This document shows, piece by piece, positions 17,640 through 40,575 of a stretch of 41,253 nt of DNA. Positions within the stretch are counted from its first letter, which is position 1; every line of letters begins with the position of its first letter. This DNA is from Bifidobacterium sp. (GTDB lineage Bacteria; Actinomycetota; Actinomycetes; Actinomycetales; Bifidobacteriaceae): assembly GCA_024104275.1 (NCBI GenBank), contig JAGGHK010000011.1, positions 1 through 41,253 of the forward strand, written 5' to 3'. The notes under the pieces were generated by a model. That model searched no databases. It saw nothing but the letters and a program-made list of their open reading frames with translations, and was not told the origin of the DNA. Position numbers and translations under genes: made by a program.

Positions 17640-17849
17640 AGGTGCTGCGCAGATTATCGGGGTATTTGGTGCAGAGTATGCCCGTGGCGGCCTTCTTTGA
17701 CGGAGTTGTGCGTACATTGGGAATGTTAACACGGATAGGTATGTCTTGCTGTATTAAAAAGTATTGCCTGATGATACTTAGGGTTGAAAACGCCGATTAC
17801 AGCACACGAACGTAGTTGACGGATGATGAAGGGGAAGGAACGGCAAACG

Positions 17850-22668: not shown

Positions 22669-22884
22669 TTCATATTTTCTTCTTTGTCTGTTTGGGTGGG
22701 CTTTTTGATTGGTGCGAACGAGATTCGCGCAGACGAGACGCGGGCAATGCTATAGATTGTCAACGTGTGAGGTCAATGGCAAGTATTGAGGACCTTTGCA
22801 CAAAGTGTGACGGAGAAGGTGCAGGGCGTTATGTGACGACGCTTGCGGCCGGATTCGTTCGTTACTTTTTCAGAGAGGAACATT

Positions 22885-23841: not shown

Positions 23842-23917
23842 CTTCGGTCCGTTGGCGGTTTCCTTCTTTTTCTGCAAATAAATCAATAATCACAATATTC
23901 AACCATCGAGGAAAAAC

Positions 23918-25345
23918 ATGTCAACATCATCATCCTCGGCGCCGGATCAAAAGGTTGCGGCACCTGATGCAAAAGATTCCGAGATAACCAGCGATATGGC
24001 CGTGAAGGCCCTGATTCCGCTGCTTATCACGTTCGTCCTAGGTACGCTGTGCCTGCAGGGCTTCAATATGGTCTTCCAGCAGATCGGCGAGGCCGTTGGT
24101 GCTCCGCAGCAGGCCTCGCTGATTACCGCCATCCCGAGCATCGTGCTGGGCATCGTCTGCTTCGTCTACGGCTCGCTCGGTGACTTCGTGTCGTTGAAGA
24201 AGCTTGTCGTGGTCGGCATTACTTTGCTCGTTGCCGGCTCCCTGTTGGGATTCTTCGGTAATTTCTTTTTCAATGCCAACATCTGGACGGTTATCATTGC
24301 CAGGTCCATCCAGACAGCCGGTGAACAGGTGGCTGGTTCGGTCTATCTGGTCGTGGCCACCAAGTATCTCAAGGATTCGCTGAAGGTCATCTTCTTCGGC
24401 ATCTTTACCGCCGGTTATCAGGTCTCCGCTGCCATCGGAGTGTTCGCGGCCGGTTTCCTGACCTCGATCCACTGGCAGTATCTGTTCCTGATTCCCGCAA
24501 TCACGATCTTCTTCCTGCCACTATTGCTGCATAACCTGCCGAACAAGACCGGCAATGGGGAGAAGGTAGACGCCCTTGGCTTCATCATCTTCGGCACTGC
24601 CGTGGCCTTCATCACCCTCTTCTTCTCCTACAAGAGCTGGTGGATGATCGGCGTGTCCGTGCTGCTGTTCGTGGTATTCGCAGTCTATATTCACAAGGCC
24701 TCGCACCCCTTCATCACCCCGGCCTTCTTCCACAACAAGCGCTGGCTCATGGCCATTTCTCTTATGCTGCTGCTCTATCTGCCGAACTACACCTTCTCCC
24801 CGCTGTTCAACGGCATCTTCGTCAAGGTGTTCCACATGTCCACCTCGCAGGTCTCCACCTACTTGGTATGGGGCTTCGTGGTCGGTGCCACCGTGGGCAT
24901 TTGCTCCGGTTGGATTGTGGGTAAGATTGGCACCCGCACCGCCATCATCGTGGCGGCCTGCATGAAGATTCTGGGCTTTGTGCTCGAGATTTTCTGCATG
25001 AATCTCGGACCGTTTGCGATGACGCTGGCTGCATGCGTCTACTATGGCGGTGGCGGCTTCCTCTACTCCCCACTGGTATCCACGGTGCTTGGCACGTTGC
25101 CCAAGGATCAGTCCGGCCGTGGTGTCGGTATGAACGATCTGGCGATGAACGTCTCCAGTTCCATCGGTATTGCCGTCATCGGCGGTTTCATGAACTCCCC
25201 AGCCCTCCAAGCCGGCAGCATCAACGGAACCACCGGTCTGGCCGCCAACTATGCCAACCTGTTCCTGCTTGACGCGGTGCTTATTATGATCGCGTTGGTT
25301 GTCTACTTCGTCTTCAATAAGAAGATTTACGCTCAGGACAAGTGA
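23918..25345 (+). CDS. MFS transporter, DHA2-like, probable nucleoside importer
   Basis: 475 residues with a polar N-terminus (Ser/Ala/Asp, about 25 residues) and about fourteen hydrophobic helices. MFS signatures are visible: GSLGDFVSLKKLV after helix 2, IIARSIQTAGEQVAGSVYLV in helix 4 and the mirrored GWIVGKIGTRTA in the second half. DHA2 proteins are mostly known as drug exporters, but the operon (nucleoside hydrolase directly upstream, 76-bp gap, shared LacI-type operators) makes uptake of nucleosides or ribose more likely. The ribosome-binding site is GAGGAAAA just before the ATG. A strong terminator follows at 25404-25446. Confidence 0.85.
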   Translation: MSTSSSSAPDQKVAAPDAKDSEITSDMAVKALIPLLITFVLGTLCLQGFNMVFQQIGEAVGAPQQASLITAIPSIVLGIVCFVYGSLGDFVSLKKLVVVGITLLVAGSLLGFFGNFFFNANIWTVIIARSIQTAGEQVAGSVYLVVATKYLKDSLKVIFFGIFTAGYQVSAAIGVFAAGFLTSIHWQYLFLIPAITIFFLPLLLHNLPNKTGNGEKVDALGFIIFGTAVAFITLFFSYKSWWMIGVSVLLFVVFAVYIHKASHPFITPAFFHNKRWLMAISLMLLLYLPNYTFSPLFNGIFVKVFHMSTSQVSTYLVWGFVVGATVGICSGWIVGKIGTRTAIIVAACMKILGFVLEIFCMNLGPFAMTLAACVYYGGGGFLYSPLVSTVLGTLPKDQSGRGVGMNDLAMNVSSSIGIAVIGGFMNSPALQAGSINGTTGLAANYANLFLLDAVLIMIALVVYFVFNKKIYAQDK

Positions 25346-25403
25346 TGCGATTGAAAGCTTTGGGTTGCAGAGCGTAACTGCCCCGTAACCTAAGGGTTTT
25401 CAG

Positions 25404-25446
25404 GGACGAAGTCAGGTCTAATCACCTGGCTTCGTCCTTTTGTTTT
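25404..25446 (+). terminator. Rho-independent terminator after the MFS gene
   Basis: GGACGAAGTCAGGT (25404-25417) pairs with ACCTGGCTTCGTCC (25424-25437) over 14 bp with one G-T wobble; loop CTAATC; tail TTTTGTTTT. Confidence 0.93.
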
Positions 25447-25459
25447 CCGCGGTGAAACC

Positions 25460-25483
25460 GGGTTTGTGGGTTTGTGGGTTTGT
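25460..25483. repeat. Short tandem repeat, GGGTTTGT three times
   Basis: Three perfect copies of an 8-bp unit (25460-25467, 25468-25475, 25476-25483) between the terminator and the next promoter. Such runs can change length by slippage. With only three G-runs it is not a full quadruplex motif. Confidence 0.8.
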
Positions 25484-25598
25484 TTTTCGGATGGTATATG
25501 GTAATCTGCATTTTCGTTTGTGTCTCGGTAACGTTCGGCAATGCTCCATTCACATTCTGCAACGATAGTGATTGGTTATTTTTATGACGTTATTGATT

Positions 25599-25627
25599 TT
25601 GACAAAAATGATTGAACGCTTTATCAT
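25599..25627 (+). promoter_or_regulatory. Sigma-70 promoter of the second nucleoside operon
   Basis: TTGACA (25599-25604) and TATCAT (25622-25627) with a 17-bp spacer, nearly the same as the promoter at 22352-22380. The start would be near 25634, about 105 bases before the nucleoside hydrolase gene. Confidence 0.8.
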
Positions 25628-25656
25628 AGGTTTTGGCCAAATGATAAAACGTTAAA
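25615..25656. promoter_or_regulatory. Paired LacI-type operators
   Basis: AACGCTTTATCAT (25615-25627) and TGATAAAACGTTAAA (25642-25656), with centres 33 bp apart, the same sequences and spacing as at 22368-22409. The first covers the -10 and the second the early transcript. Confidence 0.78.
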
Positions 25657-25737
25657 CCATGACGAAAGGACAGAAAACATCACAATATAATTAGGTGGTG
25701 TTTGCAGAATTTTTCTTACAAAGGAGTGATTGATATC

Positions 25738-26670
25738 ATGACACAAACTGATACGGTAACGCCGATTATTATCGACACCGATCCCGGCATCGATGATGCG
25801 GTCGCCATCGCGATTGCAGTGTACGACCCGACGCTGGATGTCAAGCTCATCAGCACAGTAGCCGGCAACGTTGGCCTCGACGCAACGACGCTGAACGCGG
25901 AGAAGCTCCTGACGTATTTCGGCAAGGATGTGCCGATCGCCAGGGGAGCGGCAGAGCCGTTGATTCACAAATTCGAGGATGCCAGCGATATTCACGGCAA
26001 AACCGGCATCGAAGGGTTCGATTTCCCTGAACCGCGCAAGGATCTGCTGCTCAAAGAAAACTCGGTCGATGCGATGCGCAACGTGCTGATGTCCAGTGAC
26101 AAGCCGATTACCCTGGTCACCATTGGCCCGTTGACCAACGTGGCCCTGCTGCTTAAGGCCTATCCCGAAGTCAAGGCCCACATTTCCGAGATTGTAATGA
26201 TGGGTGGCTCCGTGACCCGTGGCAACAAGGGTGTAATGGCAGAATTCAATGTGTATGTCGACCCGGAAGCCGCCAAGATCGTACTGAAGGCGGGTATCCA
26301 CGTCACTATGGCGACGCTTGACGCGGGCATGGGCACCGCGATTCCGCCCGAGGAGACGGCTCGCATGGACACCATGGGTAAGGTCGGCCACATGGCCCAC
26401 GACCTCTTCCAGCGTTACCGCAAGCGCAGCTTTGGCACGGGTCTGAAGATGTATGACCCCTGCGCCATCGCCTGCATTCTGCAGCCGGACCTGTTCACAA
26501 TGGAAGATGCATTCGTCGATGTCGAGACCTCCGGCGAGCTGACTCAGGGCTGCACTGTTGTCGATCTGAAGGGCTACCTCAAGAAGGAACCGAATGCGAC
26601 CGTTACCACAGGCGTCGATTCGCAGCGCTTCTGCGAGTGGTTCATGAAGGCTATCGAACGCTGCGACTGA
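25738..26670 (+). CDS. Nucleoside hydrolase (second copy)
   Basis: 310 residues, starting MTQTDTVTPIIIDTDPGIDDAVAI. The full DTDPGIDD calcium-site motif is at residues 13-20. Further family marks are TIGPLTNVALLLKAYP, IVMMGGSVTRGNKG and FNVYVDPEAAKIV. The late catalytic segment reads LKMYDPCAIACIL, with Tyr where the first copy (and most relatives) has His before Asp-Pro, so its substrate range may differ. AAGGAGTGA (25720-25728) precedes the start by 9 bases; the frame could be extended to 25702 but without support. A DcuC-like carrier follows after 48 bp, in the same operon. Confidence 0.92.
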   Translation: MTQTDTVTPIIIDTDPGIDDAVAIAIAVYDPTLDVKLISTVAGNVGLDATTLNAEKLLTYFGKDVPIARGAAEPLIHKFEDASDIHGKTGIEGFDFPEPRKDLLLKENSVDAMRNVLMSSDKPITLVTIGPLTNVALLLKAYPEVKAHISEIVMMGGSVTRGNKGVMAEFNVYVDPEAAKIVLKAGIHVTMATLDAGMGTAIPPEETARMDTMGKVGHMAHDLFQRYRKRSFGTGLKMYDPCAIACILQPDLFTMEDAFVDVETSGELTQGCTVVDLKGYLKKEPNATVTTGVDSQRFCEWFMKAIERCD

Positions 26671-26718
26671 GTGTTTGACTAGAGATTTTCATATAGAAGA
26701 AAAGAAAGAAATCCAACA

Positions 26719-28149
26719 ATGCAAATGGCAATAATGTATATCGCTGCGATCGTTGCGGTCGCAGTGGTCATCTTTATGCTCATCAAAAAGATGGACATCA
26801 AGATTTCGCTGTTCCTTATCGGCATCCTGCTGATGTTCGTAGCCTTGCTGATGGGCAAACCGATCGCCTTTGAGAAATTCGTTTCGAGCGGCGTGACTTG
26901 GCTCGACCCGTTCAAGGTTGTGGGCGATCAATTCGTCAGCACGTTGGTTTCAGCGGGCTTTATCATCCTGATTCTCGGCGGTTATACCGCTTACATGTCC
27001 CATATCGGCGCCAACGAGGTCACGGTTTCCGTGCTCGCCAAGCCAATTGGGCACATCAAGTCCGCCTATATTCTTGTACCGATCACCTTCCTGCTGGGCA
27101 ACCTGCTGTCCCTGGTGATTCCGAGTGCGTCCAACCTTGCCATCATCTTGTTGGCGACCCTCTTCCCGGTGCTTATTCAGGCCGGCATGTCGACGCTGAG
27201 CGCCGCGGCCGTCATCGCGACCACCGCAACGATCATGCCGACCCCGCTTGGCTCCGACAACGTGGCCATTGCCGCTGAGCTGGCCAAGACTGCAAAGTTC
27301 GCCGGTATGACTGCAAGCGATTACGTCTTCCGCTATCACGTCCTCGTCTCGGTGCCAACGTTGCTCATCATTGCTATTGTGCATTACTTCTGGCAGAAGT
27401 TCATGGACAAGCGTCACCCCGAGACCACGGGTCTTGCCTCCGCTGACGTCAAGGACGTCAAGCCCGTTGAAGACGGACATCTGTTCCGCACGGTCTACGC
27501 GATTCTGCCGCTGCTGCCAATCATCATGTTGCTGGTGGTCTTCGCTATCAACTCCATCGCCGGCACCAAGATCAATATCACTGTTGAGCTTGCCTCTATC
27601 CTTTCCTTCGTCATTGCGATTCTATGCGAGCTCATTCGCACCCGTAAGGGCAAGGAAACGCTTGCCGGCACCGACAGCTTCTTCAAAGGCATGGGCAACG
27701 CGATGCCGATAGTCGCGCTTCTGGTCGCTGCATCCGTCTTCGTTGTGGGCCTCAAGTCCATTGGCCTGATCAATGCTCTGCAATCCGCTATGACCGGCCT
27801 GCATGGATCCGGCATGGGCTTCGTCCTACCGCTCATCCTTGTGGCTCTGAGCGCTCTGATTGTGCTGCTCTCTGGCTCCGGCACCGCGCTGTTCTTCGCG
27901 ATGGTTCCGCTTATGGTTCCGCTCGCAGCTGCTGCTGGCATCAACGTACTTGCTGTCTCGCTGCCGATGGGCCTGGCTGGCAACCTGCTTCGTGCGGTTT
28001 CCCCGGTTTCGGCTGTAGTCATGATCGTGGCTGGCTCCGTGAAGAAGAGCCCGCTCGAGATCGTTCGCCGTACCAGCGTTCCTATGGTTGCCGGCGTCGT
28101 GGTGATGTTCGTCCTCTCGATGCTCATCTTCCTGCCGATGGGTGCGTGA
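26719..28149 (+). CDS. DcuC-family carrier in a nucleoside operon
   Basis: 476 residues with about twelve hydrophobic helices. The match to the C4-dicarboxylate carrier DcuC is clear at GGYTAYMSHIGANEVTVSVL, LGNLLSLVIPSASNLA, ILLATLFPVLIQAGMS, VHYFWQKFMDKRHPET, AILPLLPII, LLVAASVFVVGLKSIGLI and LLRAVSPVSAVV near the end. In enteric bacteria DcuC exports succinate during anaerobic growth. Here it is cotranscribed with a nucleoside hydrolase under a LacI-type operator, so it may instead move nucleosides, bases or ribose, or trade a fermentation acid. The sequence alone cannot decide. A terminator follows at 28215-28278. Confidence 0.88.
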   Translation: MQMAIMYIAAIVAVAVVIFMLIKKMDIKISLFLIGILLMFVALLMGKPIAFEKFVSSGVTWLDPFKVVGDQFVSTLVSAGFIILILGGYTAYMSHIGANEVTVSVLAKPIGHIKSAYILVPITFLLGNLLSLVIPSASNLAIILLATLFPVLIQAGMSTLSAAAVIATTATIMPTPLGSDNVAIAAELAKTAKFAGMTASDYVFRYHVLVSVPTLLIIAIVHYFWQKFMDKRHPETTGLASADVKDVKPVEDGHLFRTVYAILPLLPIIMLLVVFAINSIAGTKINITVELASILSFVIAILCELIRTRKGKETLAGTDSFFKGMGNAMPIVALLVAASVFVVGLKSIGLINALQSAMTGLHGSGMGFVLPLILVALSALIVLLSGSGTALFFAMVPLMVPLAAAAGINVLAVSLPMGLAGNLLRAVSPVSAVVMIVAGSVKKSPLEIVRRTSVPMVAGVVVMFVLSMLIFLPMGA

Positions 28150-28214
28150 GTCTCGTCGCTATAGGCGCTATAGCTGTATAGCTTGGTTTGCGCTGCTAAT
28201 ACAACCGAACAAAT

Positions 28215-28278
28215 AAAACGGATGGCCAGATATCTCGGCTCTGTAAACGCAGAGTGTAGGTATTCGACCGTCCGTTTT
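28215..28278. terminator. Two-tier terminator between convergent genes
   Basis: AAAACGGATGG (28215-28225) pairs with CCGTCCGTTTT (28268-28278), one wobble, and the loop holds a second hairpin (CTCTG with CAGAG). T-runs end the arms on both strands, so it can serve both the DcuC-like gene and the regulator at 28332. Confidence 0.75.
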
Positions 28279-28331
28279 GTTGTATCGCAAATAGAGATGC
28301 TGCCGTCGCGTTGCGGCAAAATTCTGAACTG

Positions 28332-29378
28332 TTATTTTATGGTTCTGACAGACCCTTTGATAATCATTTTTGGCTTAAGCAATGAAGTCTGGGGGTCGTT
28401 TAGCCATGGAGCCGGGCTGAGTTTGGATGCCTTCTGTTTGATTCGATTCATCATGTAGGCGTGACAGGATTTTGCAAGCTGGGGGATGTCCTGATCGATG
28501 GTGGTCAGATTTGAGGCGATGCCGAGGCTGTTGAGGACATTATCGTAACCGATCAGGGAGATGTCTTCGGGAATGGACAGGTTGCGTTCCTCGGCTCGTT
28601 TTGAAAATCCTAGCGCCATCAGGTCGTTGCAGCAGAACACCGCAGTGGCTCCGGAATCGAGAATGCGGTCGGCGGTCTGATAGCCGCCATCGAAACGGTA
28701 AGCTCCGTAGCAATCGAGTTGCGGGTCGATGGTGATGTGGTTTTTGCCTAGCTCGTCAACGAAACCTGCCTTGCGAGCTTCCGCGTTTCCGTTGTCATGA
28801 CGGCCGGAAATGCAAGCGATATGAGTGTGACCAGCTTCGACGAAAAGACGTGCTGCAAGCTGGCCGCCCTGATAGTTGTCTGAACCCGCCGCGTCGCACC
28901 ACTGCTCCCGTACCAAACGGTCAGTCAGTACGACCGGGCAGCTCATCTGTGCTACTTCGCTGCGCAAATCGGTGGAATCCTTGGTTGATTCGCTGGAAGG
29001 AATCAGGAAAAGCCCGTCGATATTGCGTGCCTCAAACTGTTGAAGCAATTGACGTTCGGTGTTTTTGGAATCGTTTGAATTGGCAATAATCAGTGAATAG
29101 CCGTCCGCGCTGCATTCGTCCTCGATTTCCTTGGCCAAAGATGCAAAGAAAAGGTTTTCGATATCGGGGACCAAAAGCGCCAACAGCATCGAGCGTTTGG
29201 TGACTAGACTACGAGCGGTCTGATTGGGTACGTAGTTGAGTTCGTTTGCCTTGCGTTTGATAAGCTCACGTTTTTCTTCTGAAACTCGTGTCGGATGGTT
29301 GTTGAGTACCAGCGAAACAGTTGTTATCGAGACTCCTGTGGCTTTTGCAACATCACGCAATGTTGTGCGATTGCTCAT
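28332..29378 (-). CDS. LacI-family regulator of nucleoside/ribose genes (RbsR-like)
   Basis: 348 residues from the Met at 29378, chosen because AGGA sits 9 bases upstream; the Met at 29387 is too close to that site. The DNA-binding domain is TLRDVAKATGVSITTVSLVLNN with hinge NYVPNQTARSL. The effector domain starts LLALLVPDIENLFFASLAKEI and has RNIDGLFLIPSSES, AGHTHIACISGR and AVFCCNDLMALGFSKRAEE, the pattern of ribose and purine repressors (RbsR/PurR). It lies downstream of ribokinase on the same strand and has an operator-like site in its own leader (29466-29480). It is the natural candidate to bind the repeated operators at 22368, 25615 and 30581-30625. Confidence 0.9.
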   Translation of the reverse strand: MSNRTTLRDVAKATGVSITTVSLVLNNHPTRVSEEKRELIKRKANELNYVPNQTARSLVTKRSMLLALLVPDIENLFFASLAKEIEDECSADGYSLIIANSNDSKNTERQLLQQFEARNIDGLFLIPSSESTKDSTDLRSEVAQMSCPVVLTDRLVREQWCDAAGSDNYQGGQLAARLFVEAGHTHIACISGRHDNGNAEARKAGFVDELGKNHITIDPQLDCYGAYRFDGGYQTADRILDSGATAVFCCNDLMALGFSKRAEERNLSIPEDISLIGYDNVLNSLGIASNLTTIDQDIPQLAKSCHAYMMNRIKQKASKLSPAPWLNDPQTSLLKPKMIIKGSVRTIK

Positions 29379-29465
29379 TGTTCCCATTCCTACACGATGA
29401 TTGTTATCGCGACTTAGGCGACGAAAAATTACGTAAGAATGGTATCAAAGCCGCTCTATAAGCCA

Positions 29466-29480
29466 TGACAAAACGTTTCA
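29466..29480. promoter_or_regulatory. Single LacI-type operator before the regulator gene
   Basis: TGACAAAACGTTTCA differs from the operator TGATAAAACGTTAAA at 3 of 15 positions. It lies 86 bases upstream of the regulator start and downstream of ribokinase, which suggests autoregulation. Confidence 0.6.
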
Positions 29481-29554
29481 CTATTATGTAAGGGCATTTT
29501 AACCGCGAAAATGATGGTAATCAAGTGAGTGAGAAACAAGAGATTTTGCAGCAA

Positions 29555-30538
29555 TTACTTGATTGGGATGCTTGCTTTTGAAAAGAACGCCTTGATTTGC
29601 TCGCTGGTGCCGTAAGAAGCTTGCGCACCATAGCTGGTCGCGGCGTAGGCGGCCACGTATGAGGCCAGCGAGGCGGAATCGCTAAGTGAGAAGTCGGAGG
29701 ATAGGCCCGCAAGCAGGGTACCCATGAAGGCGTCGCCGCAACCGGTGGTGTCGACAGCGTCGATTTTCGCGGCGTCAACGTGGTAAGTACGGTCTTCTTC
29801 GATGACGATGGCACCGTTGCCGCCGAGAGTAACGACAGCCTGCTTGAAACCGAAATCATGCATGGTCTGCGCGATATAGTTCCAGTCCATGCCCAGCCAA
29901 TCACCGTTCTTCGGTTCGGCGATATTCAGCAGTTGCGCCATCTCGTGTTCGTTGACCAGAAGGATATCAGAATATTCGACGAGTTCGTACGGCAGCTTGT
30001 CAGTGAAGGGGGAGTCGTTCAAAAGCACCTTGATGCCGGCATCGTGGCACATTTTCGCCGTCGCGGTGACGGTTTCGATTGGACTTTCTAGGCATAGGCC
30101 GAGCACCGACGACTTGAGCAGCACGCCTTTCTGACTTTCGATGTAGTCGGTGTTGACGGCTGCGTTTGAACCCGCCGAATAGACGATAGTGTTTTCGCCG
30201 TTATCGTCGACGGTGATTACGGTCGTGCCGCTTGCGCCGTCGGCATGGCGGACGTGTGATGTGTCTACGCCGGCGTCATTGAGCTTGCCAAGCAGAAAAT
30301 CAGCGTTTGCGTCGCTTCCCACGGCTCCGAACATATTGACGCTTGCGCCGATTCTCGCGGCAGCGGCGGCTTGGTTGCCGGACTTGCCGCCGGGAAGAAT
30401 GCGCAGCGGACCTCCGGCGATGGTCTCGCCGGGCTTCGGCAGACGCTTGGCTGTGATCGTATAGTCGGCGTTCATTGACCCCACAATGCTGATTGATCCT
30501 GAAATATTATCCAGCAGGGGAAGGGCCTTTACGTTCAT
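29555..30538 (-). CDS. rbsK: Ribokinase, PfkB family
   Basis: Phosphorylates D-ribose to ribose 5-phosphate, linking nucleoside breakdown to the bifid shunt and PRPP. The 327-residue protein has the PfkB layout: SISIVGSMNADYT near the start, the substrate motif GGKSGNQAAAAARIGA (about residues 50-65), TVITVDDNGENTIVYSAGSN, and the catalytic DAVDTTGCGDAFMGTLLAGL near residue 250 (GCGD in place of the usual GAGD). Start 30538 follows GAGGATGAG; an upstream Met at 30574 has no support. It is transcribed toward the LacI gene from its own operator-bearing promoter. Related adenosine or fructose kinases are the alternative, but the context fits ribose. Confidence 0.88.
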   Translation of the reverse strand: MNVKALPLLDNISGSISIVGSMNADYTITAKRLPKPGETIAGGPLRILPGGKSGNQAAAAARIGASVNMFGAVGSDANADFLLGKLNDAGVDTSHVRHADGASGTTVITVDDNGENTIVYSAGSNAAVNTDYIESQKGVLLKSSVLGLCLESPIETVTATAKMCHDAGIKVLLNDSPFTDKLPYELVEYSDILLVNEHEMAQLLNIAEPKNGDWLGMDWNYIAQTMHDFGFKQAVVTLGGNGAIVIEEDRTYHVDAAKIDAVDTTGCGDAFMGTLLAGLSSDFSLSDSASLASYVAAYAATSYGAQASYGTSEQIKAFFSKASIPIK

Positions 30539-30580
30539 CTCATCCTCGTTTCGCGTTACATCAAACCACAACAAGTCTTT

Positions 30581-31878: not shown

Positions 31879-32277
31879 ATCTCGCCTTCCGCTCTATCTC
31901 CTCCTCGTCCGTATCGCCAATCCGGCATTGTGCATACCGGATGTGGCGGAACAAGGATGAATCACAAGAAACCTCTTCTAATATAGCGCCAACCCCGCGC
32001 AAATCCGTGGTGGCGGGTTGCAGGTGGTGAGCCGTCCGTATCAGTTGAATACAAAAAGATTACTTCGTTTGTCGGTTTGTGCCGATTTTGTCGGGTATCG
32101 GGAACGGTCAAAATGGGACACTCCTTATTTGTCGTCGGTGCAAATGATGAGGAAACATCTGATAAATCTCGGATTGCTCAGTTAGGGAACGGCGATTCTA
32201 TACAGCCAAAAACCGGAAATAGGCCTTATATAAATCGGAAATAACAGACGGGTAGTTTGTTCGTTATACGAGGTAAT
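31879..32277. other. Intergenic region between prs and the envelope cluster
   Basis: About 400 bp between divergent units. On the plus strand TTGCTC (32174-32179) with TCTATA or TATACA (32197-32204) could form the promoter of the envelope cluster. On the minus side TATATT at 31980-31985 might be a prs -10. No gene was recognised. Confidence 0.45.
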
Positions 32278-32415
32278 ATGAATGACGTTTTAACCATGAT
32301 GAGTTTGCATGGTAAAGAAGTGGAATGGAACCTGATGACATGCTTATCGTTGTCTCCAGCGGAGTGGACGGCTTTGTATTGTCTTCTTGCCCATACCTCA
32401 AGAGATGAAAAATAG
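32278..32415 (+). CDS. Possible 45-residue small protein at the head of the envelope cluster
   Basis: ATG 32278 follows GAGGT (32270-32274) and opens a frame of 45 codons ending at TAG 32413-32415, 18 bases before the next gene. The sequence begins MNDVLTMMSLHGKEVEW and has LSLSPAEWTALYCLLAH, which looks like an amphipathic helix; no membrane helix or signal peptide is seen. The ribosome-binding site is tightly spaced (3 bases). I recognise no family. Its position suggests it is the first gene of the cluster, but it could also be a chance frame in the leader. Confidence 0.4.
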   Translation: MNDVLTMMSLHGKEVEWNLMTCLSLSPAEWTALYCLLAHTSRDEK

Positions 32416-32433
32416 ATAATAGAAGAAGGTATC

Positions 32434-33174
32434 ATGTCCAAAAGCCAAAAAGCCGATGAATACAAAAACGCATTAGCGATTTTGGATACGAATTTTTCCA
32501 CGGAAGTAAACTCCGCTTATCAGGTCGCCAAGGCCCAGCTTGATAACGTTCAGACTGCCAATCTCGAGGGCCCGGCCCGCGCCATGCCCGATGATCTGCG
32601 TAGCCAATTGGAAACGCTGAACGCGACTTTCATGCAGCAGATCCCGCAGAAGCGCGCACAGTTGCAGCCTCAGCGTGAAACCGCGGAACGTAACCATACC
32701 GTTTTCCTCATTGTCCAGATCGCCTTGATCGTCGTTGGCGTGCTTATGCTTCTCGGCAGTGCAGGTGCCCAGAGCGGCGGTTTGGCGGGATTCGGCATTT
32801 TCCTTATTATCGTCGGCATCGTCTGCCATTACGTTTTCAAATCGATGAGTGCGAAGTCCGTCGAAGGCCTTGCGCTCGATTGGCACGCTTTCTTCGAATA
32901 CTATGCGGAGAATATCGGCCATCCCGAATCTTTGCATACCCAGGCCACCGGTCTCTATAAGGGCATTGATCAGCTTTATCTGCAAAGCCTTACGGAGCAG
33001 GCCCGCGGTTTTGAAATGCAGCAGCGTCAGATGAAGAAACAGATGGAAGCCCAGAACGAGCAGAGCCAGCAGCAGCTTGCGATGCAGATGCAGACCATGC
33101 AGGCCATGCAGCAAGGGATGCAACAGATTTCGCGCCAGCAGACCATCGGCAACATCATCAATCTCAGCAAGTGA
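32434..33174 (+). CDS. Two-span membrane protein with coiled-coil C-terminus
   Basis: 246 residues, unrecognised. Residues 1-87 are helical and charged, probably a coiled coil (TFMQQIPQKRAQLQPQRETAE). Two adjacent membrane helices follow (FLIVQIALIVVGVLMLLGS and GFGIFLIIVGIVCHYVF, about residues 90-108 and 119-135), which puts both ends on the same side, likely the cytoplasm. The last 60 residues are an extreme Gln/Met-rich coiled coil (MQQRQMKKQMEAQNEQ, then repeated QMQTMQAMQQ). Similar Gln/Met coils end the protein at 33883, so the two may pair. The ribosome-binding site is AGAAGG. It starts the co-directional cluster with the SPFH protein. Confidence 0.8.
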   Translation: MSKSQKADEYKNALAILDTNFSTEVNSAYQVAKAQLDNVQTANLEGPARAMPDDLRSQLETLNATFMQQIPQKRAQLQPQRETAERNHTVFLIVQIALIVVGVLMLLGSAGAQSGGLAGFGIFLIIVGIVCHYVFKSMSAKSVEGLALDWHAFFEYYAENIGHPESLHTQATGLYKGIDQLYLQSLTEQARGFEMQQRQMKKQMEAQNEQSQQQLAMQMQTMQAMQQGMQQISRQQTIGNIINLSK

Positions 33175-33218
33175 GTCATTGTCGCCGGACGACGATGTTT
33201 TAAAAGGAGCTTTGCGTT

Positions 33219-33788
33219 TTGCCAAGTGTTGATGACTCTCTGTTATGCCCTGGGTGCGGGGCGTCTCTTTCTCGAGACGACACCGTCTGTGAATATTGCG
33301 GACGTAAGGTGGTCGTCACCGGGGTGACGTTGAAGACGGCGAATCGGGCGGTGTTCAAACGGGCCGACAAGACCATCGAGAAGATAAAGGGAGTCGTCGG
33401 GGCGTCCGAGAACTCGGATGTGCTGGCTGCGGAGGCGTTTAACATGCTTCATCGTGGTCAGTATGCAGAAGCGGCTCGCAAGCTGGATCGGGCGCAGGCC
33501 ACCACCAATGACCCAGATGTCGTTTTCTATGACGCCGTTGCGCATTACAAGTGTCAAGAGCCGTATGAACTTGATCTGGATGAGGCCGAGTCGATAATCA
33601 CAACCATAGACTCGGCCATTGCGCTCAATCCGGATCCCCAGTATTTTTATGCGAAGGCATTCATTATCCGCGAGGTGTTCGAGCGGCGCTTTCTAAACTA
33701 TGACGAAGAGTCGCAGGCCGTGTTCGCAAAGGCTGCGGGATTGAGCGAAGGCGACAAGGCGGATATCGAATCGATTCTCTCACAGTGA
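33219..33788 (+). CDS. Zinc-ribbon protein with TPR-like helices
   Basis: 189 residues from TTG 33219, selected because AAAGGAG (33203-33208) sits about 10 bases upstream and no ATG or GTG fits in frame. An N-terminal zinc ribbon is formed by Cys10, Cys13, Cys24 and Cys27 (CPGCG and CEYCG). After a basic linker (KRADKTIEKIKG) the rest is helical and looks like tetratricopeptide-type repeats: VLAAEAFNMLHRGQYAEAARKLDRA, then VVFYDAVAHYKC and ATIDSAIALNPDP-like turns. No membrane helix. Such proteins often serve as adaptors. It lies 44 bp after the two-span protein. Confidence 0.8.
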   Translation: MPSVDDSLLCPGCGASLSRDDTVCEYCGRKVVVTGVTLKTANRAVFKRADKTIEKIKGVVGASENSDVLAAEAFNMLHRGQYAEAARKLDRAQATTNDPDVVFYDAVAHYKCQEPYELDLDEAESIITTIDSAIALNPDPQYFYAKAFIIREVFERRFLNYDEESQAVFAKAAGLSEGDKADIESILSQ

Positions 33789-33882
33789 TGCGGCAGTTTC
33801 GATTCGGACGCTGTTTTTCGTGGAAGTGGAATAAGCGAAACGGCAGCAAGCAACAATCACGTTGGATGAATTTGGAGGAACA

Positions 33883-34431
33883 ATGGGCGAGTCAAAGCAG
33901 GATTTTGTCGCACAGATGCGTGAAAGGGCCATTCATTTGTGTGGCACGAGTTCAAAGGAAGTTTCGAGGGTCAGAGAGTTGACCTATTGCGAACGGTCGG
34001 GTCAGCGTGTGCTTGTCACGGTCTGGCTCTTCGGCAACAACAAGTTGATGTCAGCCCTGTTCGAGCCCGATGCCCCCCTCGACTCCTTAGGTAGGCCGCA
34101 GGGGGGCGCGGTTGAGGAGTATGAGATCAAAAGCATCAACGATGTGATGGTCGATCCTTACGGCTGCGTCATCACCTTGAAAAACGGCAAGAAGCTTGAG
34201 CTGAAGCCTAAATGCATGGAGGGTCCCGAGTCCTTCAATAGTTCCGCAAACGGGCTTAAATCGTTGTGGCATCAATTCCGTAAGGATAGTGTTTCCGGCG
34301 GTGGCATGAGGTCCAAGGATATGCAGGAAATCCTTGACCAGTTGCAGGAAATCAAGCAGATGCTGGAGCAGATGCAGCAGACCATGCAGGCTCCTTCGAT
34401 GCAACGGCCTCCTATGCCGAAGCGATTGTAG
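33883..34431 (+). CDS. Soluble protein with PH-like segment and coiled-coil tail
   Basis: 182 residues, unrecognised. The start at ATG 33883 is chosen for GGAGGAA just upstream; a longer frame from 33862 lacks such a site. The middle is strand-rich (RVLVTVWLFGNNKLMSALFEP and YGCVITLKNGKKLELKP), which suggests a small beta-barrel or PH-like fold. The C-terminus is a predicted coiled coil (MQEILDQLQEIKQMLEQMQQ) ending in a Pro-rich tail (PSMQRPPMPKRL). No membrane helix or signal peptide. It lies directly upstream of the SPFH gene and may be its cytoplasmic partner. Confidence 0.75.
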   Translation: MGESKQDFVAQMRERAIHLCGTSSKEVSRVRELTYCERSGQRVLVTVWLFGNNKLMSALFEPDAPLDSLGRPQGGAVEEYEIKSINDVMVDPYGCVITLKNGKKLELKPKCMEGPESFNSSANGLKSLWHQFRKDSVSGGGMRSKDMQEILDQLQEIKQMLEQMQQTMQAPSMQRPPMPKRL

Positions 34432-34510
34432 CGCCGAAGAAAACGAGACGAATCAGGACGTATACCAAAGGGATCTTACGGTTCGCGTTCTTAAAGAGAA
34501 AGATAAGGCA

Positions 34511-35821
34511 ATGGTGGTATTCAAAAAGAATTCCAACGAGATGATGTACGAGGGCGGCAAAAAGCATTTCGTCGATGTAATCAAGAACCGGGCGCCCAAC
34601 GATACCTTTATTTTCAAGAATCCGGAAGAGGATTTCAACAACGGCAGCACCTTGGTGGTTGAGCCGGGGGAACAGGCGGTGTTCGTCAACGAAGGCAATA
34701 TCGAACAGACCTTCAATCAGGGCACCTACACGTTGTCGCCCCAGAACTACCCGTTCATCTCGCGCTTGCGCAACGCGTTGTCGGGTGGGGTCTCCTCGTT
34801 CCACTGCCTTGTCTATTTCGTACGTATCGCCAGCGGCCATGAAATCAAATGGGGGACGCCCGAGCCCATCAAGGTCTACGACAAGTCCCTTGCCGACCAG
34901 TTCACCGGCATCGGTGTGGAAACCGAGATCCGGGCTCGCGGCGCCTACCGTGTCAAAGTGGTGGACGCAGGAATGCTGCTGACCAATATGGTCGGAGGCA
35001 ACTATGACCTCACCAGCCAGGAATCCCTGCGTGATTTCTTCCGCAATGAGTTCCTTGAAAGCATCACTTCGACGCTGACCCAGGAATTCAATGCGTTCAA
35101 CGGCCCGCTGAACGCGCTGCCCGGCAATGCGGGACAGTACAGTTCCGAGATCCAGCAGCAGCTCGCCCCCAAGGTGGCGCAATACGGTCTTCAGATGCTG
35201 AAATTCTCGATTGCGGCCATCGAAGTCGTCGACAACGATCAGCGTCGTGAGGCCCAGGATCTGGCAAGTGAAAACCGCCGGAATTATTACGGGAGCATGG
35301 CAGCGGGAGCCGGCAACGCCGCGTTCGCTCAGGGCCAGCAACAGGCTTACCAGACCTATGGCACCGATTATCAGCAGGCCCAGGTGCTCAAGGCGATGAA
35401 CAAGACCGCAGACAACCCGGGGGCTGCAGGTTCTTCGTTGATGAACGCCGGTCTTGGGCTCACGATGGGAGCCGGGCTCGGGCAGGCTTTGCCGAATGTC
35501 TTCAATTCCACGATGCAGGCGGCTCAGGGGCCTGCATCCAACCAAAATGGTCAAAATGGTCAAAACCAAGGTCAAGGTCAAAACCAAACTGTGCCTCACG
35601 GGCAGCCGGATGGCAATGGTCCGTCCGAGAACAGCCAATCGCAAGGGGTTCCTGCTCCTGATGTTCCGCAGCCGCCTGCTCCTGCAAATCCGTCCAATGC
35701 GTCTGCCGACGGTCCAACAATGTTCGAGCGTTTGAGCCAGCTGAAGCAGATGCTCGATGCCGGGCTGATTACGCAAGACGAATACGATACAAAGAAATCC
35801 GAAATCCTGAAGAGTCTGTGA
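34511..35821 (+). CDS. SPFH-domain protein with C-terminal SHOCT motif (YdjI/virion-core-like)
   Basis: 436 residues. The N-terminal two thirds match the SPFH-like family once labelled virion core protein and related to YdjI of Bacillus subtilis: NGSTLVVEPGEQAVFVNEG, FNQGTYTLSPQNYPFISRL, VYFVRIASGHEIKWGTPEPI and GAYRVKVVDAGMLLTNMVGG. A helical coil follows (QLAPKVAQYGLQMLKFSI). Then comes a low-complexity region (Gln/Asn/Gly, Pro) and a SHOCT motif at the end (MFERLSQLKQMLDAGLI followed by TQDEYDTKKSEIL). There is no membrane helix, so it would coat the inner membrane as an oligomer. Many relatives end in a zinc ribbon; here that is on separate proteins. Its stop codon is 11 bases before the next gene. 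Confidence 0.88.
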   Translation: MVVFKKNSNEMMYEGGKKHFVDVIKNRAPNDTFIFKNPEEDFNNGSTLVVEPGEQAVFVNEGNIEQTFNQGTYTLSPQNYPFISRLRNALSGGVSSFHCLVYFVRIASGHEIKWGTPEPIKVYDKSLADQFTGIGVETEIRARGAYRVKVVDAGMLLTNMVGGNYDLTSQESLRDFFRNEFLESITSTLTQEFNAFNGPLNALPGNAGQYSSEIQQQLAPKVAQYGLQMLKFSIAAIEVVDNDQRREAQDLASENRRNYYGSMAAGAGNAAFAQGQQQAYQTYGTDYQQAQVLKAMNKTADNPGAAGSSLMNAGLGLTMGAGLGQALPNVFNSTMQAAQGPASNQNGQNGQNQGQGQNQTVPHGQPDGNGPSENSQSQGVPAPDVPQPPAPANPSNASADGPTMFERLSQLKQMLDAGLITQDEYDTKKSEILKSL

Positions 35822-35832
35822 GGCGTACCGCT

Positions 35833-36555
35833 ATGAAATATCTGGCTTCAATCATCGTCACCGTGTTCTTCGTCGTGGCGGCCGCGGCGTTCGGGGTGCA
35901 ATTGGGAACGTATGGCATCGCCCCGCCCGCGCAGTTCGTGGTCATGTTCTTCCTGCTGCTCTTCACCGGGTTGGTGTGGCTGGCCCAGTCCCAGCGCAAC
36001 AAATACGATCCTTCGCAGCCCGACGCCAACGGTCTGTATTACCGGACGATCTCGGACAACAGCGTCTTCCCGATTGTCGCGTTCGTGATCCAAGGTGTGA
36101 TCGCCGTGCTGTATTTCTGCGGCTGGAACCTTCCTCCCTTCAGCTCGTTGTCTCTGGCCATGAAAGTCGCGCTTCCCAAAGGATTCTTCATCCCGTTGGT
36201 GGTCGAGCTCATCATTACCGCCATCGTCGTGGTGCTGTGGATCGGCAACAATCGTGCCAACGCCCATACGGTCGTACAGCAACAGGTCCGAACACAGAAA
36301 GTCGTGCGTAACCAACAGCTCTCCTCGCTGGTCACCCTGATTGCCCCGCGCGTGGATGCGTCGGATGCCAATGCGTTGGCGCAATTGAACCTTATCGAAG
36401 AGAAGGTGCAATCCCTGCCGTTGAATATCAATCCGGCGACTGTTGTGTTCTATCAGCAGGCCGTGCAGGAATTGAATCTGGCTGCCGGGCGTCCTGGCGT
36501 TGTGGATGCCGCGGAGCTTCGGAAAATCTGGGATTCGGTCTCCCGGATCCGTTGA
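35833..36555 (+). CDS. Four-span membrane protein of the SPFH cluster
   Basis: 240 residues. Four hydrophobic helices: two near the N-terminus (YLASIIVTVFFVVAAAAFGV, FVVMFFLLLFTGLVWLA), then VFPIVAFVIQGVIAVLYFC and FIPLVVELIITAIVVVLWI. The last 95 residues are soluble and helical (VVQQQVRTQKVVRNQQLSSL and onward), likely cytoplasmic. I recognise no family. GAGG (35820-35823) overlapping the SPFH stop codon is its ribosome-binding site, so the two genes are tightly coupled and their products probably form one complex, with this protein as membrane anchor for the SPFH oligomer. Confidence 0.8.
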   Translation: MKYLASIIVTVFFVVAAAAFGVQLGTYGIAPPAQFVVMFFLLLFTGLVWLAQSQRNKYDPSQPDANGLYYRTISDNSVFPIVAFVIQGVIAVLYFCGWNLPPFSSLSLAMKVALPKGFFIPLVVELIITAIVVVLWIGNNRANAHTVVQQQVRTQKVVRNQQLSSLVTLIAPRVDASDANALAQLNLIEEKVQSLPLNINPATVVFYQQAVQELNLAAGRPGVVDAAELRKIWDSVSRIR

Positions 36556-36632
36556 AGTGATTGCTGTTTTATACTGTTTAAAGTTGATTGCCGGCTCGTG
36601 GATTGAAGTGCCGAAAGAAAAGAGATTTGAAA

Positions 36633-39116
36633 ATGTACTGTGCTCAATGTGGAACCCTGATCCCGGACGGCGCAAAATTCTGCCCTCATTGCGGCCATGC
36701 GACCGCTGGCGCATCTAAGGATTCGGCCGCAATGGGTTCTGCCGGCAACGCCACCAAGCCGGTACAGGCCTCTGCCTCGTCCATCCCTCTTCCTTCGTCC
36801 TCATCCGGTTTGCCAAGCGCCCGTCCGGCTTCGGTGCCTGTGCGGCAGGGACAATCCTCAAAGGCACAGGGAGGGGTGCCAGTGTCTGTTTCCGCTATGC
36901 CGTCATCACCTGCCCCAGCTCAATCCGCCGTACCTCTTCCCTCCGTTTCGTCGGCTGCGGCTTCACCGATTTCGGTGGGTGGCGCGCCGCTGACATCCCC
37001 ACAGGTGGGCGCTGTCTCCGGAGCGTTGCCGGGGATGAACTCCGCATTGCCAGAAACCACCGGCACGTTGCCGTCGATGACATCTACGACTTCAGCAGCA
37101 GGTGACAACACATTGGCCGCCAATAATGACATCGTCGCCGAATTGACCGGTCCGACGAACATCAAGGCCATGCTCACCTCATGGGGTGCGGGTATCGGTT
37201 TTGCGCTGCTGGCCGCCCTGATTCTCTTTGGTGCGGACTTTTGGCTGGAGAAAATAGTCTATCGGCCATCATTCGGGTATGTGAATGGGGCGACGCTGCT
37301 TCAGGATGCGTTCGAGAAGAGTGTCGACCATCCAAACCTGCTTTTCGGCGTGTTCGTCTATCTGCTGACCACGGGTTCAGGTGGTGCGTTCTCGGTGAAG
37401 ACATGGGCTGAATCTTCGCATTCCAATCTGCTGGGTGCGCGGCTATTTGGCTTCAGTGGTATCAATTTTGTCGGTGTGGCCCTGCTTGTCGGTGCCGCCT
37501 TTGGCATGTTCATCTTCGCCCGCAAAGCCATGGCTCATAACAAATGGGCCGGTGCCGCGGGGTCGGCGATTGTCGGTGTAGCGACCGGTCTTGTCTATCT
37601 TCTCGTAGCGGCCATAGGCTCGATGACGTATTTCATGCCTCTCGGCGATTTGGCCTCGGCTTTCTTCAATACGAATCAGTCCGTTAACTCCCATGGCACT
37701 TTCGAGACCACAGTCAGCACGATGACTTGGCCAACGTTCGTTGTTCCGTTCCTGTTGGCCACTTTGGGGGCGTTCGTCGGTTATGCCCTTGGGGAGTATG
37801 CCGGTGACGCGGGCAATGTGTTCGCTGCAGCGTGGCGCTGGATGCACCGTACGCGCGGGTTCGTTCGTACGATTGCCGAGGCAGGACTGGTATATTTCCC
37901 TGTGTTTGTCGTGTTGGGTATCTGTTTGGATCTATTGGTCGCCGTGTCGTTTGGGTCGAAATATCACATGAAGGGAATCGAACTTGTCTTCGACATGCTG
38001 TTTCTGTTCCTGAACAATGTGCTTGGTCGTTTTGTCGACAGTTCATTGGGTGGAACATTCTATCGGCCGATGATAGGTTCAACTCTCCATACCTCGTTCT
38101 TCGGCACTATCGGTTCTTTGGGCTTGCCTGCTTCGTTGATGTCATATGGACTAGGATTCATCGTGTTCCTGCTGTGTACCCTGTACCTTGCCTTGCGTGC
38201 TTCCGCCCGCAATCTGCAGGACCGGTCCAATGCCGTTTGGCAGAATACATGGAAGTCTCCTGCCGTAATGGCTGCCATATGGATTGTGCTGCTCGTATGC
38301 AGCATGAGCGTAAGCTCGGTCAAGATGAATCCGTATATGGGTATCGGCAGTGCGATGCGGCGATTTGGCATCACCCTTCCTTCGTTGCAGACGTCATTGA
38401 GTGGTTTCGAACCGTGGTATGTGCTCGTGGCGGCTGCGTGGATGTTTGCTATCGAGGCGCTCGCCATGAGCGTCGGCCCCATGATTGTGACCAAGATGCC
38501 GTCGCTCATGACCATTCTCAAAGGTGGCCTGGTGCAGCCCGTTCCTGTGGATGTTGCCGCACGTGTCAATGCGTTGGACGGGTATAGCGACCGCAACAAG
38601 GCGGCATACATCGACGCCGGCAGTTTTGTTGCCCGGCTTCAGGCTCATCAGGTCGATGCGACGTTGGGCAATGCCAAACCGAACGGAATGGCTGCTTCCA
38701 TGTTCTCCAAGGTCTCAAGCGGGAATCCCGCTCCTACTACCACACCCGCGACCGGGTCATTGCCAGGACTGGGTTCTTTGGCCAACAGCAATCCGATGGC
38801 TGGTGCCACGCCTTTGGCGGGTACAGGAACTGGCATGTCCGGCATGCAGGATGTTGGGGCTCAGGCTATGGGTACTGCGGATTCCGATATGCAGCCTGCC
38901 TCGTCAGCCCTTTCTTCTTTCTCTGATTCTTCTTCGACCGGTCCGGCAGTGACGCCGTCGGTTTCCGCACCGGCTTCAACCGGTGCGATGCCGGCGTCAG
39001 GCACTTCGGCCTCGCCGAACCTGGCTGCTACGGGACCGGCAACTGCGGCTCCTGCAGCCGAGCATCTTCCCGGGCTTGCCGACTTGGAGGCTTTACGTAA
39101 CGAGCAGGGAATGTGA
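36633..39116 (+). CDS. Large zinc-ribbon polytopic membrane protein
   Basis: 827 residues, unrecognised beyond its parts. The N-terminal zinc ribbon is MYCAQCG with CPHCG (Cys3, Cys6, Cys17, Cys20). A Ser/Pro/Ala-rich disordered linker runs to about residue 165. Nine or ten membrane helices follow (for example FALLAALILFGADFWL, FVGVALLVGAAFGMFIFA, FVVPFLLATLGAFVGYALG, YVLVAAAWMFAIEALAMSV), up to about residue 640. A second Ser/Thr/Pro-rich tail ends LPGLADLEALRNEQGM. Zinc ribbons on otherwise unrelated membrane proteins are often adaptors. It follows the four-span protein by 77 bp and precedes another zinc-ribbon protein. The ribosome-binding site is weak (AAGAGA). Confidence 0.78.
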   Translation: MYCAQCGTLIPDGAKFCPHCGHATAGASKDSAAMGSAGNATKPVQASASSIPLPSSSSGLPSARPASVPVRQGQSSKAQGGVPVSVSAMPSSPAPAQSAVPLPSVSSAAASPISVGGAPLTSPQVGAVSGALPGMNSALPETTGTLPSMTSTTSAAGDNTLAANNDIVAELTGPTNIKAMLTSWGAGIGFALLAALILFGADFWLEKIVYRPSFGYVNGATLLQDAFEKSVDHPNLLFGVFVYLLTTGSGGAFSVKTWAESSHSNLLGARLFGFSGINFVGVALLVGAAFGMFIFARKAMAHNKWAGAAGSAIVGVATGLVYLLVAAIGSMTYFMPLGDLASAFFNTNQSVNSHGTFETTVSTMTWPTFVVPFLLATLGAFVGYALGEYAGDAGNVFAAAWRWMHRTRGFVRTIAEAGLVYFPVFVVLGICLDLLVAVSFGSKYHMKGIELVFDMLFLFLNNVLGRFVDSSLGGTFYRPMIGSTLHTSFFGTIGSLGLPASLMSYGLGFIVFLLCTLYLALRASARNLQDRSNAVWQNTWKSPAVMAAIWIVLLVCSMSVSSVKMNPYMGIGSAMRRFGITLPSLQTSLSGFEPWYVLVAAAWMFAIEALAMSVGPMIVTKMPSLMTILKGGLVQPVPVDVAARVNALDGYSDRNKAAYIDAGSFVARLQAHQVDATLGNAKPNGMAASMFSKVSSGNPAPTTTPATGSLPGLGSLANSNPMAGATPLAGTGTGMSGMQDVGAQAMGTADSDMQPASSALSSFSDSSSTGPAVTPSVSAPASTGAMPASGTSASPNLAATGPATAAPAAEHLPGLADLEALRNEQGM

Positions 39117-39208
39117 ACCAGACAGGATTGCGTCCGAGACTGAATGCCGGATACGATGCCGGTATCTATCGCCAATGTCATTGAACGAATCAGAGAGATG
39201 GGATAGCC

Positions 39209-40546
39209 ATGAGAAAATGCGATAAATGCGGTGCGTCGATATCCGACACCGATTTGTTCTGTGCAACATGCGGGGCGAAACAGACGGGTGCGGCAGGTAG
39301 CCCGCAAGCCAGTGCCCCTGAATCCGGCGGTTCTCCGGTTCCGTTGCCTTCCGGTGCCGGTGGACAATCCGGCATACCTTCTCCCGTTCCCAGCGTTGCC
39401 AATGCCGCAACCGAACCAATGCAGGTGCCCGGTGACGGCATGACCACGCCTTCGTCCTCTTCGGGGGCGCCGCCGATGTCGCAGGCGATACCCGGGATCG
39501 GTGCCACGGCCGGCTCCTCGCCTGCGCGCAATGCCGCGGCGATGTCCGATTTGCCCGGTGATCCCGCCGCTCTCGCCGAGGTTGAGGCCAATAATAAAAA
39601 AGCCCGAACTGTTGTTATTGTGGTGGCCATCATCGCTGCGGTATGCATCGTTCTTGGCCTAGTGATGGCAGCGACCGGTGGCAATAAGGCTTCCTCCTCA
39701 TATCAGAATGCCAGTGCCTCCAGAACCTCGTCTTCGGGCGGAGATGAGGGCAGTGCCAGTTCGTCCGGCCAATCAGATGACGACGATTGTGTCACTGCGC
39801 CCAAGGCCACGGTCGACAAGATCAATCACGAGGATACGACGTTGTTGGTCGATCTCGACCTCACTTCAGGTTGTGCTTCCGGGGAGAAATACAAGCGTTC
39901 CGACACCACGGTGATGTTGAAAGCCGATTCCTACGTCGTGGCCATCGCGAATTTTGATTTTTCCAGGCACCCGGTCAAGTTCGATGACGATTCGGCACAG
40001 GTAACGCTTGCTTTTTCCGACCACCAGTATTGGCGCCCATACGATGAGATCGGCAACGCCACGGCGCTTTTCGAAACCCATGGCCAAGGGGTGGCTTCCG
40101 ATCCGAACGGCGACAAAGCCCCCAGCGTGACCGACGCGATATCGGGCGAAGCCGTCAATGCCCAGCGGGCCAATGAATACGCAGAAGGGGACTTGGCTTG
40201 GCAGGAGAAACACGACCGTGATATGGCATCCAGCTTTTATAACTCCGCGACCACCCAGTTGTCGAGCATGAAGCTCAATAGCCAAGTCGGTGCCAAGACC
40301 GTCGATGCCAGAAGCATTATGCGGCAGTTCATCCTTACGAGGGCGAAATACCCCAATGCCTTTATTATATGGGCCCAGCGCTATCCGCATTACACGCAGC
40401 GTGGGTTTGACGCCCAATATTATGTGCTGCTTTCGGGCGAGTCATTCGGCGATGTCAATGCCGCGAATGCATGGTGTTCGGCGAATGGGTACGGCAGAAG
40501 TGACTGCATCGGTATGAAGATGAGTGACGATGGGACAGATGAATGA
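39209..40546 (+). CDS. Zinc-ribbon, single-span protein with extracytoplasmic domain
   Basis: 445 residues. The zinc ribbon is formed by Cys4, Cys7, Cys18 and Cys21 (CDKCG, CATCG). A Ser/Pro/Gly-rich linker leads to one membrane helix (VVIVVAIIAAVCIVLGLVMAA, about residues 134-154), placing the ribbon inside and the rest outside. Outside lies a Ser/Asp-rich stretch, then a folded domain of about 250 residues with two pairs of cysteines (CVTAPK and SGCASG; AWCSANGYGRSDCIG) that could form disulfides. The end, FDAQYYVLLSGESFGDVNAANAWC, resembles SPOR-like sensor ends seen on some actinobacterial membrane proteins, but I cannot confirm it. GAGAGATGGGA precedes the ATG. Possibly the outward sensor of the cluster. 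Confidence 0.78.
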   Translation: MRKCDKCGASISDTDLFCATCGAKQTGAAGSPQASAPESGGSPVPLPSGAGGQSGIPSPVPSVANAATEPMQVPGDGMTTPSSSSGAPPMSQAIPGIGATAGSSPARNAAAMSDLPGDPAALAEVEANNKKARTVVIVVAIIAAVCIVLGLVMAATGGNKASSSYQNASASRTSSSGGDEGSASSSGQSDDDDCVTAPKATVDKINHEDTTLLVDLDLTSGCASGEKYKRSDTTVMLKADSYVVAIANFDFSRHPVKFDDDSAQVTLAFSDHQYWRPYDEIGNATALFETHGQGVASDPNGDKAPSVTDAISGEAVNAQRANEYAEGDLAWQEKHDRDMASSFYNSATTQLSSMKLNSQVGAKTVDARSIMRQFILTRAKYPNAFIIWAQRYPHYTQRGFDAQYYVLLSGESFGDVNAANAWCSANGYGRSDCIGMKMSDDGTDE

Positions 40547-40575
40547 TTGGTGCGCCGACTGTCTCAACCCGCCCG

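Follow-up and report, generated by a model that had tools for sequence, protein, structure and literature searches.

A five-gene bifidobacterial cassette is one form of a transferable membrane module that recurs across phyla around an SPFH protein

Seven open reading frames (ORFs), A–G, lie in a single direction in a 41,253-nucleotide stretch of Bifidobacterium sp. DNA (positions 1–41,253 of contig JAGGHK010000011.1, assembly GCA_024104275.1; the whole stretch is referred to as the window), and were grouped by the original prediction into one SPFH/zinc-ribbon envelope system. The locus raises the question of which of these genes belong together, how widely they occur and what the encoded proteins might do. 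All seven ORFs are real, with the shared direction and the domains first described; the possible small leader gene placed before them is probably none, the best E-value in a search of eight bifidobacterial loci being 1.6. The features are as follows.

Candidate leader ORF: 32278..32415, + strand; sits within a 52-aa ORF starting with TTG; probably no gene
A: 32434..33174, + strand; 246 aa, two-span coiled-coil protein; first gene of the cassette
B: 33219..33788, + strand; 189 aa, zinc-ribbon/TPR protein; core; TTG start
C: 33883..34431, + strand; 182 aa, PH-fold protein; core
D: 34511..35821, + strand; 436 aa, spanless SPFH (Band_7_1) protein with a SHOCT end; core
E: 35833..36555, + strand; 240 aa, four-span protein; core; translation may instead begin at a GTG at 35818, which would overlap D
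F: 36633..39116, + strand; 827 aa, zinc-ribbon polytopic protein; neighbour outside the conserved unit
G: 39209..40546, + strand; 445 aa, zinc-ribbon single-span protein; neighbour outside the conserved unit

D belongs to the SPFH superfamily, matching PF13421 (Band_7_1) in Pfam at 3.1e-33 and 115.6 bits against a curated cut-off of 24, with a SHOCT match at 9.5e-9, and the resemblance to YdjI-type SPFH proteins noted at the outset is borne out; PF13421 is named as the partner found most often with SHOCT in the available portion of the source (PMC3581485). No span is predicted in D, while E has four hydrophobic segments and A has two (sequence-based segment prediction). In B, four Cys are invariant in the homologue alignment, the TTG start agrees with the MPSVD of its homologues, and the TPR exceeds the Pfam cut-off in homologues outside bifidobacteria. 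The predicted structure of C (pLDDT 91.3) has PDB matches of PH type and shows the seven-strand barrel and closing helix that place it in the PH-domain superfamily, with a coiled-coil tail that the alignment confines to the window and to Bifidobacterium sp. ESL0763. E is predicted (pLDDT 89.2) to have a long fourth helix and a small, helical end. Neither C nor E matches anything above the curated cut-off in Pfam and NCBIfam scans, and no toxin domain exceeds the Pfam cut-off in A–G.

Within the family, D is matched (E ≤ 1e-3) in 42 of 151 genomes, and its close subfamily is present in 6, that of the window included. The other five close-subfamily genomes (62–64% identity in D) all carry A, B, C, D and E in identical order, with no match to F, G, prs or rpsF in the 18–19.5 kb around the cassette. 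A seventh genome, Bifidobacterium sp. ESL0763 (locus L082), has the order prs-A-B-C-D-E-F-rpsF, with identities to the window of 62% for A (43–50% in five further bifidobacterial genomes), 89% for B, 84% for C, 88% for D, 77% for E and 45% for F. G has no match in L062–L066 or L082, its single match (43%) adjoining rpsF in a locus without A–E (L079). F is matched in 58 of the 151 family genomes at E ≤ 1e-3, some of these matches being confined to the zinc-ribbon end; at E ≤ 1e-20 the number is 39. F homologues without A–E are common in the family, and F stands beside A–E in the window and L082 only. Across the seven genomes with this D subfamily, A–E are thus found together in 7/7, F after E in 2/7 and G in 1/7, and the cassette occupies more than one genomic site in bifidobacteria, with neighbours that vary between sites (ORFs compared by eye). 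Judged from sequence, the conserved unit is A–E, and F and G are neighbours, since they do not travel with it. The idea of a single seven-gene system, for which togetherness across Bifidobacteriaceae had been proposed as a check, therefore holds for A–E and fails for F and G.

The prs–rpsF interval is a variable site, to which F belongs. One genome (G148) resembles the window on both flanks (90% up to 32021 and 95% from 40571) and has 2.7 kb with an F-like gene where the window has an 8.5-kb block (32022–40570); it is not among the 42 family genomes with a D match. In two close relatives (L077 and L078), the flanks are near-identical to those of the window, but only F-like minus-strand genes lie between them, as against A–G. 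It is conceivable, if improbable, that in this lineage A–G function together, the cassette having recruited F and G once it had entered the interval. The shared direction and short gaps would agree with such a unit, as would the succession of E and F in L082 and the replacement of the entire 32022–40570 block in a close relative; against it, the cassette lacks F in 5/7 genomes and G in 6/7, and many family genomes have F without A–E.

A scan of a named genome collection with the D alignment yielded 109 relatives. The analysis used the best 80, three of them bifidobacterial and 77 from elsewhere (75 of the latter scorable); these were picked on D alone, and genes there were called by a simple longest-ORF script. 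The best 80 of the 109 come from Clostridia, Treponema, Bacteroidales, Lactobacillaceae and further groups, with 33–46% identity to D, and E lies directly after D in 64 of the 74 non-bifidobacterial loci among them with enough sequence. Well-covered non-bifidobacterial loci from the same best 80 of 109 (at least 7.5 kb upstream and at least 1.5 kb downstream; n = 41) contain E in 36 cases, B in 32, C in 31, B, C and E together in 29, a YidD-domain protein (YidD match 5.5e-18) in 22 and an ATPase in 17; eight of the 41 have neither B nor C, which counts against the platform reading set out below. The E family of the window is homologous to E of the relatives (99.9% probability, 3.8e-35 in profile comparison), and an iterated search from five bifidobacterial copies of C picked up every one of the 42 proteins in the relatives' C cluster, and with the threshold at E < 0.01 it reached nothing other than C. 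The module of B, C, D and E is found repeatedly in Bacillota, Spirochaetota and Bacteroidota. Matches to A outside bifidobacteria are weak (L101_0, 1.3e-4; L093_10, 0.02), and on this distribution A is peculiar to the bifidobacterial form. The C terminus of D switches in relatives between SHOCT and a double zinc ribbon (L142, L160 and L204; L160 by eye).

The system had been put forward as possibly actinobacterial, a label that does not suit a module present in several other phyla, with E in only 2 of 396 sampled Actinomycetota genomes, that of the window included. In the other of these two (G1031), a D-like gene lies beside a short E-like gene (L214 8341–10413), and a second D-like gene was seen at L213. 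The seven bifidobacterial D proteins form one clade (100/100) on a long branch of 1.14 changes per column in a quick tree, and the clade is confirmed in a careful tree, in which the bootstrap had not converged. This pattern fits a single entry of the module into the family, presumably from outside. A–E are the bifidobacterial form of a transferable, trans-phylum membrane module with B, C, D and E as its core.

Among the relatives we distinguished a long form, with the ATPase near D, from a short form, in which B, C or the YidD-domain protein adjoins D and there is no ATPase. The 75 non-bifidobacterial loci from the best 80 of 109 include 26 short and 20 long forms; 15 further loci have an acid-rich ORF (>20% Asp + Glu over the first 150 residues) near D and no ATPase in the stretch, the contig ending upstream in 13 of these. 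The long-form ATPase is HerA-like (DUF87/HerA, 1.6e-10; solved HerA structures, 6.5e-10), and the usual order is ATPase, at least one protein with an acid-rich N terminus, often a small ORF, then D and E; where these genes and the YidD-domain gene lie by the core, their usual place is between C and D. Ruminococcus albus is one commensal with the long form. Of the 951 ORFs in the loci that are 180 aa or longer, block proteins included, 6.1% have such an acid-rich start, and 23 of 25 acid-rich ORFs upstream of D have no predicted span. Among 48 loci that extend 7.5 kb or more upstream (bifidobacterial loci included, minus-strand loci exempt from that test), ATPase and acid-rich ORF occur together in 15, the ATPase without the ORF in 2, the ORF without the ATPase in 2 and neither in 29 (p 1.5e-8, indicative only because the loci are related). 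One of the two ATPase-only loci has an acid-rich ORF after E and the other is masked there; in one of the two acid-rich-only loci the ORF resembles a lipoprotein.

Pfam matches of 34 acid-rich proteins include DUF6782 metallopeptidase (7), Gln_amidase papain-fold toxin (5), Colicin-DNase (4), SprT-like (3), Peptidase_M76 (3), WHH nuclease (2) and others (1–2 each), counts that overlap between families, with many proteins matching nothing. The long-form relatives have the defining arrangement of polymorphic toxins, a common kind of N-terminal start joined to C-terminal toxin domains that differ between proteins, glutamine deamidase and colicin DNase among them. Many acid-rich proteins are followed by small ORFs, which may be immunity genes, although Pfam found an immunity-type (SUKH) match in only 1 of 28. 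Three long-form loci (L142 11973–15994, L160 11960–14587 and L155) encode, after E, single-span proteins that have a zinc ribbon and a domain on the outside (cluster 12); their layout is like that of G, and one resembles a C-type lectin fold by eye.

Whole-genome searches found the ATPase once, at full length, in each of six long-form genomes and in none of 14 short-form genomes, three of them bifidobacterial; it is absent from all six bifidobacterial cassette genomes searched, two of which are also in the short-form set. When searches began from the ATPase, three sets of 196, 345 and 344 genomes yielded 2, 4 and 2 full-scale matches, query genomes included. Four of the strong matches were new: one lies beside a D-like gene and an acid-rich protein, a second has D-like, E-like and zinc-ribbon genes and no toxin, a third has no D in 19.9 kb on a contig that starts 3.3 kb before the ATPase, and the contig of the fourth is too short, which gives linkage to a D-like gene in two of the three with context. 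D was near none of four more distant ATPase homologues; the contig of one is only 4 kb, and one (L207 5383–12096) lies beside a 1318-aa acid-rich ORF. The results of these ATPase-first searches suggest that the tie between ATPase and acid-rich protein may predate the tie to D, and that the two may be paired in the absence of the SPFH core. Neither the long nor the short form is confined to one part of the D tree, and the toxin/ATPase block may therefore be a passenger; this and the incomplete linkage seen from the ATPase count against the platform reading set out below.

As to function, we infer from these contexts that D, anchored by E and with B and C as adaptors, may well form a sub-membrane platform for the assembly of client proteins, which some bacteria use for toxins; the gene context of the relatives, in distant gut bacteria, speaks less for a simple stress operon than for a platform, so far undescribed, on which membrane assembly or export takes place. 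D, being spanless, would oligomerise at the inner face of the membrane, where E would hold the oligomer by analogy with YdjI, which needs two membrane proteins. Band-7 proteins in Psp contexts have been interpreted as chaperone-like assembly factors (PMC11237479). C would contact the membrane or a partner and B would bind clients, and the platform would gather clients at the membrane, where they would be inserted, assembled or exported. YidD is named as a membrane insertion factor. Because a YidD-domain protein is a frequent extra part, a client-handling platform is preferred over a pure stress sensor; A may replace the YidD-domain protein as an additional membrane part. In the long form, the ATPase would move toxins, with the Asp/Glu-rich start as an address, and the toxin block would represent one class of clients. 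In the short form, as in the window, where the genome has no such ATPase, the platform would serve other clients or membrane order itself. For bifidobacteria, the toxin link is by homology only, since their cassette contains no toxin, ATPase or YidD-domain gene and the ATPase is missing from 6/6 genomes. A more specific version, which we hold as tentative and rather doubtful, is that B–C–D–E with the YidD-domain protein are the base of an export machine, in which an SPFH ring on a four-span anchor, with a HerA-type hexamer serving it, delivers polymorphic antibacterial toxins with Asp/Glu-rich N termini, the bifidobacterial cassette being the same base with other clients and with A in place of the YidD-domain protein and ATPase. 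A membrane-associated complex, as first proposed, was a sound expectation of the product; for its proposed role in envelope stress, the context of the relatives favours a client-handling or toxin-associated platform at least equally.

That role would take the form of a PspA-free relative of the Bacillus subtilis YdjGHI membrane-stress complex, in which D organises stressed membrane with its partners and has no clients, a reading that we consider unlikely. D shares PF13421 with YdjI-type proteins (we take YdjI to belong to this family), and short forms free of toxin and ATPase are as common as long ones (26 versus 20 of 75 loci from the best 80 of 109). The pspA-ydjGHI operon likewise has a spanless SPFH protein, membrane partners encoded alongside and zinc ribbons (PMC8581546, PMC11237479). 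YdjI is likely a soluble SPFH protein whose membrane position requires two membrane proteins, and the division of labour reported for YdjI with YdjG/YdjH (PMC8581546) is that of spanless D and four-span E. However, PspA (PF04012) has no match in the genome of the window (94.85% complete), as against matches in 9 of 14 control genomes, so that the absence of PspA noted from the window extends genome-wide. The seven window proteins include no match to a YdjH-like TPM domain (Pfam, E ≤ 1), E, B, C and A being present instead, and the YidD-domain gene and toxin–ATPase block of the relatives would be left unexplained.

In flotillin–NfeD (YuaF/YqiJ) pairs, an SPFH protein and a multi-span partner are encoded in adjacent genes. 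D–E are alike in this adjacency, but D is a spanless Band_7_1 protein, and a Pfam scan of E at E ≤ 1 gave no match to NfeD, with a comparison of folds pointing neither way. DUF87 and solved HerA are both matched by the long-form ATPase, as HerA/FtsK pumping ATPases would, yet its scores come nowhere near the cut-offs set for the named HerA and CedD families. Like the polymorphic toxin systems described in the available part of Zhang et al. (2012; PMC3482391), long-form relatives combine a shared leader with varying C-terminal domains (papain-fold, colicin-DNase) and small neighbouring ORFs, one of them SUKH, whereas the window has no toxin gene. The same part of that survey gives at least eight secretory systems and mentions neither SPFH nor YidD, and the word 'toxin' does not occur in the available main text of the 2024 Psp survey (PMC11237479). 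That the bifidobacterial cassette is what remains of a toxin export system, or a general-purpose base for one, and now exports toxins encoded elsewhere would be in keeping with the homologous core around motor and toxin-like genes in relatives, but is highly improbable given that such an ATPase is missing from all six cassette genomes searched and that short forms are stable and occur widely across the D tree. An anti-phage defence module is barely credible: the patchy, apparently transferred distribution and a distant similarity of the long-form ATPase to HerA_antiphage (45.5 bits, the cut-off being 800) could be so explained, but PADLOC matches none of the seven proteins at E ≤ 1, and the variable proteins of the relatives have acid leaders and polymorphic-toxin domains.

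SPFH proteins are widespread, and we know of no account of what most bacterial ones do for clients. No paper turned up by full-text searches of an open-access library describes, in its title or the opening of its abstract, an association between an SPFH core, a HerA ATPase and toxins, and none in that library combines SPFH with YidD, or DUF87 with polymorphic toxin and secretion. The SPFH/four-span/adaptor set across phyla, with and without motor and toxin-like proteins, is a natural deletion series, and comparing the two forms can show the SPFH base's own role and whether it can underlie export. On the platform reading, two unnamed families, C and E, would gain a role, as neither has a curated-cut-off match in the Pfam and NCBIfam scans.

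Elsewhere in the window, an 832-aa ORF (17823–20321, + strand) resembles by eye a mevalonate-pathway kinase fused to a type 2 isopentenyl-diphosphate isomerase. Just before prs, the interval 22843–30574 carries two nucleoside-hydrolase-like genes, two transporters, a LacI-type regulator and a ribokinase-like gene, and looks by eye like a ribonucleoside-use cluster.
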